Below the pieces are notes generated by a model, which was given only the letters and a program-made list of their open reading frames with translations, was not told the origin of the DNA and did no database searches. Positions 7,916 to 12,614 of a stretch of DNA of 37,654 nucleotides are shown here, in pieces. Both the position numbers and the translations under genes were made by a program. The stretch's first letter is position 1; each line of letters starts with the position of its first letter. The stretch covers positions 1-37,654 of IMG/VR virus record IMGVR_UViG_3300006086_000015. One strand, written 5' to 3'. This stretch comes from a virus.

Positions 7916-8296
7916 CTATGGCCGAACTCGATCAACACCAAGCGATACAATCACTTCGCGCACAGTTAAACGCGCTTGCTCAAGTTGTTTTGCATGCTGT
8001 TGCAGCGCTTGAAGTGAATGGGTTAATTGATGGTCAAGGTTTTGAAGCTGCGCTACGTCTGCAGCAGTGGCCGAAGCCAATAAACGATGAGGCTCAGTTT
8101 GTAATGGCGGAGCTGTGTGACTTGTTGGCCAGTGCGCGTAACCAGCGCCAACTAAGGTCGCTTGAGCGTTAAAGCCGTAATCGTTGGTAATGGGAAATTG
8201 AACTGTTTTGCCCGCAAACTCGCGGACTAACTCCGTGCTGATTTGCGTGCCAAGCAGTTCAACCAAGCGGCCTAACAATAGGGTAAATGGGCTCAT
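7916..8296 (-). CDS. Early protein with Mor-N-terminus-like segment, 126 aa
   Basis: The ATG follows the upstream gene by nine bases with AAGGA at a 6-base spacing. Residues about 7-37 (LGRLVELLGTQISTELVREF, then AGKTVQFPITNDYG) resemble the dimerisation part of Mor/C activators, but no C-terminal HTH follows. Instead there is a long amphipathic helix (DVAQLQNLDHQLTHSLQALQ...). It could be a Mor-like partner or regulator; this resemblance is weak and by eye. An 84-codon frame on the plus strand (7918-8172) lies entirely opposite it and also has a good ribosome binding site, so strand choice rests mainly on operon continuity. Confidence 0.6.
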   Translation of the reverse strand: MSPFTLLLGRLVELLGTQISTELVREFAGKTVQFPITNDYGFNAQATLVGAGYAHWPTSHTAPPLQTEPHRLLASATAADVAQLQNLDHQLTHSLQALQQHAKQLEQARLTVREVIVSLGVDRVRP

Positions 8297-8601: not shown

Positions 8602-8610
8602 GGGGTGTCT

Positions 8611-9057
8611 ATGTCTCACTTTTCGATGGGTAGCAGAATTAGGGCTGTCCGAGGGGAGCTTGGTGTTAGCGAGTTTGCTGACAAGCTTGAAATAAACCGT
8701 AAAACCGTGACTCGTTGGGAGGCCGATGAAGGCATCCCTGACGGCGACTCATTGATTTTGTTGTACCAAGGTTTTGGTGCAGATCCGCTTTGGATATTGC
8801 TAGGAGAAGGTTCAGCACCTGAAATAAATTCAGCTGAGCAGGTGTTGCTTTCTAACTATCGAATCTGTTCCATAGAAGCCAAAAAAAATTTATTACAGAC
8901 AAGCTCTTTGTTGGCTGCTGGTGTCGAAGTTAGTAAACCCGTAGTAAATACGGGAAACAAAGTAGTTCAAAACTTCAATAAAGTTGGGCAAAGCTATACA
9001 GGTGATTTAGTTATCGGCAGCCCATTAGATAGTGATTTTTTTAAAGACGACAAATAG
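8611..9057 (+). CDS. XRE-type prophage repressor
   Basis: The 148-residue protein has an N-terminal HTH (about 8-65): SRIRAVRGELGVSEFADKLE, then INRKTVTRWEADEGIPDGDS, ending in WILLGEG. There is no S24 peptidase domain, so RecA-stimulated self-cleavage is unlikely. The C-terminal tail (about 115-136, VVQNFNKVGQSYTGDLVIG) resembles a motif in the next two proteins. I start at the ATG at 8611 (AAGGGG five bases upstream); a GTG at 8605 lies within that site. It is transcribed away from the early operon and probably acts on the palindrome at 8576-8595. Confidence 0.85.
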   Translation: MSHFSMGSRIRAVRGELGVSEFADKLEINRKTVTRWEADEGIPDGDSLILLYQGFGADPLWILLGEGSAPEINSAEQVLLSNYRICSIEAKKNLLQTSSLLAAGVEVSKPVVNTGNKVVQNFNKVGQSYTGDLVIGSPLDSDFFKDDK

Positions 9058-9075
9058 TGGTTTATGGAGCGGTAG

Positions 9076-9678
9076 ATGGTCGATGAAAGAAAAAACAACG
9101 ATGAATCAAAAGTAATTCATCAACATTTTTACGAGAAGGTGAATGTGGTTGCCGGTGGAGACATTAAAGGTATAGATCTGCAATTAGTTGAAACCAAGAA
9201 CACCCCACTGGGTTCTAAAAAAAATTATTCAAATGTGGATGAAGAAAAAAATTACTTCAAAAAATCAAAAATGAGAGGCACTACTGCACCATCGAGAATT
9301 GGGCTTGAGTTGTTGCTTGAGGAAAACATAAGCACAGAAACTGTAGCAAGAGCTTGGAATAAAGGGTTTCTTTGGTTTAACGACAGCCACCAATTTGAGG
9401 TTGATCTTAATCCAAATCATCCAAGGATAGGAATGGCAAGTGTGTTTTTGGCCGCGCTTTTTGGCATAGCACCCTCAATCCTGTGGGAAATTATCGCGCC
9501 AGCCGGTTATCATCTAACACCACATCAGAGAGATGTGCTTCTTATAATAAATGCGATTACATTCAGCATGTCTATATTTTTTGCATGGCGTGGTATGCGC
9601 AGGCTTGTACCATTTCTGGCAGCTAAGCGAGCGGCTATTTTTATTCCAAAGATTAATGAGATGCTTAGGAATAAGTAG
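9076..9678 (+). CDS. Two-TM membrane protein with VAGGDI motif, cargo gene
   Basis: A 200-residue protein starting 18 bases after the repressor stop, with GGAG before the ATG. Residues 16-30 (QHFYEKVNVVAGGDI) carry a motif shared with the next gene and loosely with the repressor tail. A polar linker follows, then transmembrane segments at about 118-140 and 152-171 and a basic C-terminus (MRRLVPFLAAKRAAIF). The gene is AT-rich compared with the structural genes. It may form an operon with the repressor and be expressed in the lysogen. Superinfection exclusion or another membrane-acting conversion function is possible; I recognise no family. Confidence 0.7.
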   Translation: MVDERKNNDESKVIHQHFYEKVNVVAGGDIKGIDLQLVETKNTPLGSKKNYSNVDEEKNYFKKSKMRGTTAPSRIGLELLLEENISTETVARAWNKGFLWFNDSHQFEVDLNPNHPRIGMASVFLAALFGIAPSILWEIIAPAGYHLTPHQRDVLLIINAITFSMSIFFAWRGMRRLVPFLAAKRAAIFIPKINEMLRNK

Positions 9679-9753
9679 GTAGGAAGCGGGCAAATGAAAG
9701 GCACCTTGGTAGAAATTACGATTTTTCAAATAATCATTTAGTAGGAGCTTGTT

Positions 9754-10206
9754 TTGGACGATAGATTAGATGGCGATGGTCAAGATACAGATAATACTAA
9801 CGAATATACGCAAAATTTTCATGGAAATGTTGGTCAAGTCGCTGGCGGCAACATAAACATAACTAATCACATATATGAAAAGGGAGTGGATCATAATGCC
9901 CTTACTGACGCGCAGCTTCGTCAGAGGAAGGCGGAATTTAAAAGGCGTTTATTTAAAGTGAGGAAATTGTTTTTGTTCTCTTGGCCTGTTTTGGCGCTGC
10001 CAATTTATATGGTTTTAACGATCTGTTTCGTTTTTAGTGGATTGCTATTTTCTGTACCAGCTTATCTTTTCTTGGCGTGGGCATTGGGGATGATAGTAAT
10101 TGCTGGGTTTATTGTCGAAAAGCGAAAACAGTATGGCCCACTGATATTTTACTATAAAAATGAAGTTGCACGCATCGATTACCATTTAACGCATAGAAGT
10201 ATTTAA
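9754..10206 (+). CDS. Two-TM membrane protein with VAGGNI motif, cargo gene
   Basis: A 150-residue protein starting at TTG, chosen because AGGAG lies six bases upstream; no ATG fits. Its N-terminus is acidic (DDRLDGDGQDTDNTNEY), followed by QNFHGNVGQVAGGNINI (residues 20-36). A charged helix (about 50-70) and two hydrophobic segments (about 72-98 and 100-121) come next. The plan matches the upstream gene: motif first, then linker and membrane hairpin. The two may be diverged paralogues or partners. Function unknown; a membrane effector in lysogenic conversion is a hypothesis. Confidence 0.7.
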   Translation: MDDRLDGDGQDTDNTNEYTQNFHGNVGQVAGGNINITNHIYEKGVDHNALTDAQLRQRKAEFKRRLFKVRKLFLFSWPVLALPIYMVLTICFVFSGLLFSVPAYLFLAWALGMIVIAGFIVEKRKQYGPLIFYYKNEVARIDYHLTHRSI

Positions 10207-10240
10207 TTGCTCTTTTTAACAATAAACACATGGAGTTTTT

Positions 10241-10738
10241 ATGATCAAGAGAATTTTTCTATTGCTTTCTATTCCAGTTGTTACGCTGCCTACATATGCA
10301 AGTGATATTAAACCAGTACCTGATCAATGGGATGTTGCAGTTATTAAGGATGAATTTACAGATCAGCAACAAACATTTGCGTTTGTCGCCTCGACTGAAG
10401 GAAAAGAGAAAGGCGTAATAGTGGTAGCTTGCTTTGCAAGAGGGCAAATAGAAACCAAAATCAGTACAGGTGCTTATATTGGTAGCAAAGATATCCCAAA
10501 TAATATGCTCTACCGTGTAGATGATGACCCTGCTGTTACATCTACTATGACTCCATCCAAGAGGGTGGTTTTTTCTGATAAGTACAGTGAGCAATTTTTA
10601 CAAGACATAAAGCAAAACTACAAAGATCACGTAAATGTTCAATTAACCGATTTTGAGTTTAATACGACCAAAGCGAAGTTCACATTAAAAAATGCAAGTG
10701 AGTCTATCAAAAAGGTAGTAGATGCCTGCGGTATGTAA
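10241..10738 (+). CDS. Exported hypothetical protein, 165 aa
   Basis: The N-terminus MIKRIFLLLSIPVVTLPTYA is a clear Sec signal peptide with likely cleavage after the A at residue 20, so the mature protein is periplasmic. The rest has KGVIVVACFARGQIETKIS and ends with VDACGM, leaving two cysteines (in VACF and DACG) that could pair. GGAG lies five bases before the ATG. A terminator follows directly at 10754. This looks like a self-contained phage cargo gene (moron) expressed from the lysogen. No family recognised. Confidence 0.72.
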   Translation: MIKRIFLLLSIPVVTLPTYASDIKPVPDQWDVAVIKDEFTDQQQTFAFVASTEGKEKGVIVVACFARGQIETKISTGAYIGSKDIPNNMLYRVDDDPAVTSTMTPSKRVVFSDKYSEQFLQDIKQNYKDHVNVQLTDFEFNTTKAKFTLKNASESIKKVVDACGM

Positions 10739-10753
10739 ATTTGCGCTGAACCA

Positions 10754-10780
10754 AAGCCGCGTTCCTGCGGCTTTTTTATT
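10754..10780 (+). terminator. Rho-independent terminator after the exported protein gene
   Basis: AAGCCGC (10754-10760) pairs with GCGGCTT (10767-10773) around the loop GTTCCT, followed by a run of T. It separates the repressor-side cargo genes from the three-gene cassette starting at 10802. Confidence 0.85.
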
Positions 10781-10801: not shown

Positions 10802-11668
10802 ATGACTGATCCGATCGTTACAAAATTTTGTGTGGTTTATGATGGCCCAGCCCACGTTGATCATGAAATAAATATTATGACGCTTGGCGCATCACTTACC
10901 TCACTAGGCAATGTGATAAAAGAGGCGAATGAACTTATAAACGGATCTGACATGTTAGAAGTTCGCGTAAACGCGGATTTTATCGAAGGGTCATTTGGTT
11001 TTGTTGTTGAGCTAATTCAAAACTATCAAGATGCGAAAGATGTATTGGATTACCTTGGCTTTACTGCCGTACATTTAATTGAAGGGGCGGCAGCTACGGG
11101 GTCAGTGATAGGGGCACTTCAGTGGCTACGTGGCCGCGATATTATTGCAATCGAAGATAATGCCCAAGACGACAACTTAGTAACTTTAAGCGTTGATGGT
11201 GAAGAAATATCAGCTCCGAGAGACATTGCAGAATTAGTTGCTAAACCTGCATTCAGGAAATCGGTCGAAGGGCTTATTGCCAAGCCATTGGAGAGTCCTG
11301 GAACGACATCGTTTTCAATATTGAAAACCCCAAAATCTAATACTCCAATGTTGAAAATTGAGAAGCCTGAAATTAGTTCCTTTCGGGAGCTAAAGGTATT
11401 GCCAACTGAGGATGAAAAAACAACTGAAGAAAAGATAAAATTCACTGCCGCTAATATTAAAGGGAAGCGTGGGTGGAAGGCAGAGATAAATGGTAAAGAA
11501 CAAACCCTCAAAATGCATGATGACGCATTTATTGAGCGGCTCTCAAATCGAACAGAAGCGTATCTATTTGGCAAAACTTTTACTGTAGCTCTAAAAACAA
11601 CAACAACAACTCGCTTGTCGAAAGCATCTAAGGTCTATACTGTAACAAAGGTTTACCACGAGTCTTAG
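10802..11668 (+). CDS. Uncharacterised cargo protein, first gene of three-gene cassette
   Basis: A 288-residue soluble protein. Its N-terminal part, FCVVYDGPAHVDHEINIMTL then ASLTSLGNVIKEANELIN, resembles a widespread uncharacterised family I recall with a [FV]xVxYDGPAL...HxMDV...EAN pattern. A short hydrophobic stretch (LIEGAAATGSVIGALQWL, about 90-107) precedes a variable linker. The C-terminal domain (about 215-288) looks beta-rich (KRGWKAEINGKEQTLKMHDD, LFGKTFTVALKTTTTTRLS). GGAG precedes the ATG. It opens an apparent operon with two membrane proteins. Defence or exclusion is plausible from context only. Confidence 0.7.
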   Translation: MTDPIVTKFCVVYDGPAHVDHEINIMTLGASLTSLGNVIKEANELINGSDMLEVRVNADFIEGSFGFVVELIQNYQDAKDVLDYLGFTAVHLIEGAAATGSVIGALQWLRGRDIIAIEDNAQDDNLVTLSVDGEEISAPRDIAELVAKPAFRKSVEGLIAKPLESPGTTSFSILKTPKSNTPMLKIEKPEISSFRELKVLPTEDEKTTEEKIKFTAANIKGKRGWKAEINGKEQTLKMHDDAFIERLSNRTEAYLFGKTFTVALKTTTTTRLSKASKVYTVTKVYHES

Positions 11669-11687
11669 CCCAAGTGAGGCAAACGAA

Positions 11688-11927
11688 ATGCTTTCAACGT
11701 TTTTTTTGGTGGCTGTATATATAGGTTGCTTCGTAGTAGTAGCCTATATATTTTCCATCATTGCCAGAAAGACATTAATACTCTTATTTGGAGAAAATAT
11801 TAATGTTACGTACATAGATATCAATGGAAATACTCAGAAGCGAAGAATTCGTGCAAATAACGATGAGGACTTAATTGACGTATTACGTGAATTAAAATCT
11901 AACGCGCGTAGAAAAAAGGCCATGTAA
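11688..11927 (+). CDS. Small single-TM membrane protein, 79 aa
   Basis: The gene starts 19 bases after the previous stop with GAGG upstream. Residues about 2-30 are a hydrophobic helix (STFFLVAVYIGCFVVVAYIF). A short cytoplasmic part follows (INVTYIDINGNTQKRRIRA, then NDEDLIDVLRELKSNARRKK). The ATG of the next gene follows its stop directly. Likely co-expressed with the flanking genes as a membrane component of the cassette. Family not recognised. Confidence 0.65.
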   Translation: MLSTFFLVAVYIGCFVVVAYIFSIIARKTLILLFGENINVTYIDINGNTQKRRIRANNDEDLIDVLRELKSNARRKKAM

Positions 11928-12320
11928 ATGGAAGAAACTACGTCAACCAGAGCTAAAAAGCTTAAGGCTACTGTAACTACGTCAGCTGGCGTAGGTACGA
12001 TCGGAGCCTTACTTTTAGGAGTTATCGCCAAATATGCTGATGCCAATACAAAAGAGATCCTTACTCTAGCAGTTCCTTTTGTCAGCGTTTGGATTTTAGC
12101 TATAGGTACATGGTTAGTGGCCGTAGGGAAATGGCTAGGTATCGCTTATGGGTTTGACGAGCCTACCGTTGTAAAGCTTCGAAGACAAACAAAAAAATAC
12201 AGGAAGAAGCTGTTAAAAGAGCTGAACGGCAAATCAACATCTGAAGAAAACAAGGCTAAAATTAGAGCTCGCTTAGATGAATTACAAATGGTTGAACTTG
12301 AATCCTATGAGATCAAATAA
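11928..12320 (+). CDS. Two-TM membrane protein, 130 aa, last gene of cassette
   Basis: The ATG directly follows the upstream stop codon. Hydrophobic segments lie at about 17-36 (TTSAGVGTIGALLLGVIAKY) and 44-67 (ILTLAVPFVSVWILAIGTWL...). A long charged helix follows (RRQTKKYRKKLLKELNGKST, SEENKAKIRARLDELQMVEL). The pattern, a membrane hairpin with a cytoplasmic coiled coil, suits a partner of the 79-aa membrane protein and the 288-aa soluble protein. Function unknown. Confidence 0.65.
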   Translation: MEETTSTRAKKLKATVTTSAGVGTIGALLLGVIAKYADANTKEILTLAVPFVSVWILAIGTWLVAVGKWLGIAYGFDEPTVVKLRRQTKKYRKKLLKELNGKSTSEENKAKIRARLDELQMVELESYEIK

Positions 12321-12425: not shown

Positions 12426-12614
12426 ATGCTTTCACTCACTAGGAATGTCAACGAATCAATAATGCTCCACACTAGCGATGGCCCAATTTAGATTATTATT
12501 CGTCGAGTTAACGGACAACAGGTTCGGGTTGGCATAATTGCTTCGCAACAAGTAAATATTGTCAGAAAAGAAATTGATCATTTGGCCGTAGTCGCTACAA
12601 CCTCCAGCTCTTAA
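12426..12614 (+). pseudogene. csrA: csrA/rsmA-like gene with in-frame amber codon
   Basis: Reading from the ATG at 12426 (AAGGA seven bases upstream) gives MLSLTRNVNESIMLHTSDGP-I, then TAG at codon 22, then IIIRRVNGQQVRVGIIASQQ and VNIVRKEIDHLAVV to a TAA at 12612. This is a near full-length CsrA (62 sense codons if read through), with the family's MLxLTRxVxESIM start and GxQVRxGI core. The amber falls in the second strand, where CsrA commonly has Lys, so AAG to TAG would explain it. CsrA binds GGA-containing mRNAs and acts as a dimer; a 21-residue fragment cannot. A sequencing error or suppression is possible. Confidence 0.8.

Follow-up and report, generated by a model that had tools for sequence, protein, structure and literature searches.

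The window, by which we mean the whole 37,654-nt (37.7 kb) virus record analysed here, is a transposable phage of the B3-like kind. B3-like Pseudomonas phages such as Fc02 and JD18 encode transposases with 46% identity to its own, and its gene order agrees with theirs, running from leftward early genes through a repressor and a rightward accessory interval to the lysis genes. The HTH repressor (8605..9057, plus strand; HTH_3 2.3e-6 and PHROG repressor models) forms the left edge of the accessory slot and lies outside the trio that is our subject. Behind it come three accessory genes encoding proteins of 200, 150 and 165 aa (9076..10738, plus strand), an intrinsic terminator-like hairpin (10753..10774, plus strand), and then, on the same strand, gene 1 (10802..11668) for a soluble protein of 288 aa, gene 2 (11688..11927) for a 79-aa protein with a single TM helix at its N-terminus and, in its predicted topology, a small domain in the cytoplasm, and gene 3 (11928..12320) for a 130-aa protein with two TM helices and a charged C-terminal helical hairpin.

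The close packing, the upstream terminator and the TM counts of the original prediction were all borne out. The gaps measure 19 bp and 0 bp, so that the stop of gene 2 and the start of gene 3 abut, and each gene has a plausible ribosome-binding site (GGAG, GAGG and AAGG, respectively). The hairpin has a 9-bp stem followed by TTTATT, 27 nt 5' of the first ATG, and a hydropathy scan agrees with one and two TM helices. Since the terminator divides the trio from the genes at 9076..10738, the latter are possibly separate cargo. No promoter stood out between the terminator at 10753 and gene 1, the promoter-like matches in the region being at chance level (17 versus 15), and the trio is driven either by read-through or by an unrecognised promoter. 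As for coding capacity, the longest open frame spans 293 codons, against a maximum of 153 in 1000 dinucleotide shuffles; a 79-codon frame is by itself ordinary, being reached in 279 of the 1000, and the call of gene 2 therefore rests on homology. The trio is AT-rich, as had been claimed (GC 40.9, 33.3 and 40.5% versus 47.1% for the window), but low GC extends beyond it over the whole 9.0-13.5 kb accessory segment and thus marks the slot rather than the trio. Just 3' of the trio, at 12426-12614 (plus strand), we noticed by eye a CsrA/RsmA-like frame (MLSLTRNVNESIML...VRVGIIASQQVNIVRKEI) with an in-frame TAG after codon 21, which we take for a broken or interrupted phage copy of this translational regulator.

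Gene 1 had been described as a member of a widespread, uncharacterised family. Widespread it is, but not wholly uncharacterised. By hmmscan it matches PHROG 3243 (7e-56), the PADLOC model PDC-S42 (1.9e-37, positions 5-287 of the 302 in the profile) and, above the cut-off, the NCBIfam model NF053583 LAPAL_fam (8e-57). The same three models are matched by gp29 of the mycobacteriophage MichelleMyBell, a reported prophage defence protein whose sequence we read from KF986246 (7e-81, 1.6e-16 and 2.5e-53, respectively), and direct profile comparison of the two proteins by hhalign gives 4.9e-13 over 254 columns, at approximately 20% identity. Because the models are shared, the PADLOC candidate, the unnamed PHROG, the NCBIfam "putative phage structural protein" and the reported defence protein are, on these sequence comparisons, one family. 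Annotation tools already capture part of this link, as the record of a Vibrio phage (PQ189332) annotates its own copy as MMB_gp29_gp30__gp29. Scans of viral and genome contigs with the gene 1 protein returned no relative, and a further scan of genome contigs with its Proteus homologue returned none.

The NCBIfam name implies that gene 1 encodes a structural protein of the phage, and the match above the cut-off is what speaks for this. The name looks wrong, however, and is unsupported by the contexts in which we saw the family: MichelleMyBell gp29 falls within the same model, gene 1 lies outside the structural block, and no homologue was found in any of 34 sibling contigs, which were identified via the transposase, in the stretch fetched from each, slot included. 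Family members turn up next to resistance genes on megaplasmids and, in prophages, within the lysogeny or early regions, and a structural role would need to be shared among tailed, transposable and tailless phages. We therefore regard a virion component as extremely improbable.

The AlphaFold2 (AF2) model of gene 1 is fairly confident (pLDDT 81.7). A PDB structure search with it gave no match at E < 0.001, and with no solved relative at this threshold no enzymatic activity can be proposed. Among viral models the best structural matches were to a set of uncharacterised proteins, one of them from mycobacteriophage Pipsqueaks, and to a DUF6575 protein whose TM-scores were low. A validated defence system of E. 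coli contains DUF6575 (PMC9519451), but the structural match is too weak and we set this likeness aside. A 2023 survey of Actinobacteria calls gp29-gp30 a predicted (p)ppGpp synthetase (PMC10482375), a description that fits gp29 of phage Phrann (PMC9262239). Pfam finds no RelA/SpoT domain in either MichelleMyBell gp29 or gene 1 of the window, and we consider that the label belongs to the Phrann protein.

Are genes 2 and 3 true partners of gene 1? One possibility, which we regard as highly unlikely, is that gene 1 defends alone and that the two small downstream ORFs are unrelated neighbours; short membrane ORFs are common, solo members of the family exist, and pairwise scores of the small proteins are weak, hhalign supporting the 2-TM protein against its prophage counterparts (E 2.5e-4) and leaving the 1-TM protein unsupported (E 0.07). 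The small trio proteins diverge fast. Gene 2 matches phrog_27630 at 1e-5, and when profiles built from seven other trio loci, with the window excluded, were run against all 264 ORFs of the window, genes 2 and 3 each ranked first (E 1.6e-4, with the next ORF at 0.34, and E 1.9e-6, with the next at 0.085). These ranks and the abutting genes speak against chance adjacency, as do the order, sizes and topology, which are alike in eight distinct loci spanning two virus realms and plasmids. The AF2 model of gene 3, of low confidence (pLDDT 63), is all helical, with two long N-terminal helices and the C-terminal hairpin, and basic residues that precede the first TM helix and follow the second point to an N-in/C-in orientation.

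Lack of conservation as a unit had been named as the finding that would count against the cassette; the trio in fact recurs in seven distinct loci besides the window, always in the order of a soluble protein of about 300 aa, a 1-TM protein of about 80 aa and a 2-TM protein of about 125-160 aa. One is carried by the tailless Vibrio phage 10N.286.45.F8_PE001 (PQ189332, genes 4-2; 284, 83 and 161 aa), beside the integrase; this phage belongs to the Vinavirales, its gene 1 homologue is 27% identical to ours, and its two partners are unannotated. Another lies in a Proteus mirabilis prophage and its IMG/VR copy, four are distinct IMG/VR prophage types (L067, L069, L070 and L071), and one is on a Pseudomonas aeruginosa megaplasmid (NZ_CP151648.1, L077 4980-6556; 308, 84 and 139 aa). 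Gene 1 matches 30 Pseudomonas plasmid records, and the trio was seen in the single one opened. In that multidrug-resistance megaplasmid an integron region and IS6100 lie immediately 5' of the trio. A tree of 22 proteins groups those from trios to one side of a branch (77/76, recovered in 82% of bootstrap trees) and sets the solo proteins apart by another (88/76); the branches of the MichelleMyBell and Vibrio phage proteins are long, so that deep placement is unsure. It is conceivable, at slightly short of even chances in our estimate, that the trio forms a membrane immune complex of three components, so far undescribed, and is passed on intact among tailed transposable phages, tailless dsDNA phages, megaplasmids and prophages of other kinds; the gp29/PDC-S42/LAPAL protein would then be a shared sensor whose membrane effectors vary or are absent by lineage.

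Solo members are indeed numerous. Enterobacterial prophages carry the gene 1 family without a membrane partner; ORF19 of Lactobacillus phage A2 stands alone between endolysin and integrase, gp27 of Listeria phage 188 adjoins the integrase together with a gene annotated for superinfection immunity, and the member in Bifidobacterium phage PMBT6 adjoins the integrase. In E. coli a near-identical solo copy is present in 34 of 5426 genomes and, in the one genome examined in full, is located directly 3' of an S24 repressor, which likewise precedes the solo copy in eight IMG/VR loci. This is the position of rexAB in lambda, just after the repressor. With so many partnerless members, membrane action is not the essential function of gene 1.

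The original prediction placed the trio where transposable phages carry lysogenic conversion genes. This holds in that the slot contains a RexA/RexB pair in a sibling contig, L008 (4314-5628, minus strand; PADLOC 4.7e-65 and 3e-21), whose transposase is 77% identical to that of the window; the accessory block, however, reaches further upstream than proposed, to 9076, and the interval filled there by the three accessory genes is shared with RexAB of L008 and accessory gene e4 of Fc02. Among 25 siblings with a boundable slot, the interval between repressor and lysis genes holds differing genes. The Fc02 lysogen transcribes the accessory gene that lies directly 3' of its repressor (PMC9936078). 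The pattern seems best explained by the swapping of defence cargo at a lysogenically expressed site.

Several other features of this region deserve mention. The same slot carries uncharacterised cargo of about 300-360 aa in further siblings (all on the minus strand), belonging to phrog_4506 (L013 3933-4829 and L016 3967-4851) and phrog_6191 (L009 3082-4161 and L019 5857-6834); these are candidate further defence genes. The idea that they are distant gp29 relatives was unsupported, as a sequence link to gene 1 was not found. Related short motifs occur in the tail of the repressor and at the N-termini of the proteins encoded next (window 8605-10206, L008 6485-7288, L009 5622-6032 and L022 7268-8231), for example NFHGNVGQVAGGNINITN in the window gene at 9754, EFQGSVGQVAGGNIINI in L008 and FHGSVGQAIEGGAVFN in the L008 repressor, and could serve pairing or oligomerisation; in several siblings the second gene also has C-terminal TM helices. 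Finally, two antiparallel ORFs overlap almost completely at 7916-8296 (minus strand) and 7918-8172 (plus strand), and both look like ORFs in L008 and L007. The pair is reminiscent of gene 10 and olg1 of Fc02, two exclusion genes that overlap (PMC9936078).

What is known of the reported relative bears on how the cassette may act. MichelleMyBell and Phrann prophages reduce plating of phage Tweety by 4-5 orders of magnitude, and the Tweety mutants that escape map to its gene 54 (PMC8549241). Both systems are described as abortive: adsorption and DNA injection are normal, and phage production is thwarted (PMC6426606). A secondary source calls gp29 toxic and considers gp30 a putative membrane protein (PMC11856565). 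Like the trio, the MichelleMyBell system (MMB_gp29_gp30 in DefenseFinder) places a small 2-TM protein after a gp29-family gene in a temperate phage, between the lysis genes and the integrase or repressor. Unlike the trio, it comes from Actinobacteria and has a single membrane partner, the 67-aa gp30 (phrog_12868), which resembles our 2-TM protein in outline, with no detectable sequence similarity. No gp30 homologue was found after gene 1, neither partner in the window matching phrog_12868 and the partner profile scoring E 0.72 against gp30; the trio is therefore a variant that would work like the gp29/gp30 system and not a member of it. PADLOC, for its part, treats PDC-S42 as a single-gene defence candidate, which gene 1 matches over its full length, and offers a model for neither gene 2 nor gene 3.

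We believe, with modest confidence, that the trio is a prophage-borne anti-phage cassette of the MichelleMyBell gp29/gp30 kind with two membrane partners, expressed in the lysogen, abortive and membrane-acting, and that it is likely to shield its lysogenic host from other phages. The evidence for this comprises the placement of gene 1 in the gp29 family by three models and profile comparison; the recurrence of the trio in seven other loci, with both small ORFs ranked first by the leave-out profiles; and the slot itself, with RexA/RexB in L008, solo members directly after the repressor in E. coli prophages and a transcribed gene in the Fc02 lysogen. The abortive character is carried over from MichelleMyBell. 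Against this reading, the reported defence is confined to one distant relative, gp30 has no detectable relationship to the small proteins, many members are partnerless, the terminator lies upstream with no evident promoter behind it, and NCBIfam gives the family a structural name.

Superinfection exclusion, in which the two membrane proteins would alter the envelope and block DNA injection while the soluble protein regulates or anchors them, was part of the original prediction and is in our judgement unlikely. Two small membrane proteins in an operon would suit it, a single prophage membrane protein, Charlie gp32, can stop injection (PMC9262239), and in B3-like phages the lysogeny switch is home to other exclusion genes (PMC9936078). 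Yet adsorption and injection proceed with the reported relative, and what the family conserves at its core is the soluble protein, in many cases with no membrane partner, so that on our analysis abortive infection is better supported than a block to DNA entry. A toxin-inhibitor unit appears more doubtful still. Here the membrane proteins would be toxic and gene 1 would restrain them, or the reverse, with phage defence as one outcome and maintenance of the element as another; the tight operon with its abutting genes, the copies on long-lived plasmids and the toxicity ascribed to gp29 in the secondary source would fit, whereas the wide persistence of solo gene 1 argues against its being a mere inhibitor or an unrestrained toxin.

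For an abortive, membrane-acting cassette we envisage a division of labour in which gene 1 senses or controls and gene 3, together with gene 2, disturbs the membrane. The LAPAL-family protein would be retained at the inner membrane together with the two membrane proteins, respond to an event after injection of the incoming phage's DNA, and then release or gate the 2-TM protein; the membrane would become depolarised or leaky and phage production would stop, as for RexA/RexB. The lambda pair works alike in combining a soluble with a membrane component in a prophage slot adjoining the repressor, although RexA and RexB belong to other families: Pfam and PADLOC scans found neither RexA (PF15969) nor the four-TM channel RexB in the trio, whose partners have one and two TM helices, while PADLOC recovered RexA in L008.

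Our analysis joins entries that had stood without cross-reference, namely a defence protein reported from a mycobacteriophage, a candidate in PADLOC, a PHROG without a name and a "structural protein" of NCBIfam. The gp29-gp30 system was described in 2023 as limited to Actinobacteria (PMC10482375), and the range of the gp29 family is here widened to Proteobacteria and to phages of Lactobacillus and Listeria. The family also gains a conserved set of membrane partners, which opens its mechanism to experimental test, and the interval between repressor and lysis genes of B3-like phages is indicated as a slot for defence cargo.
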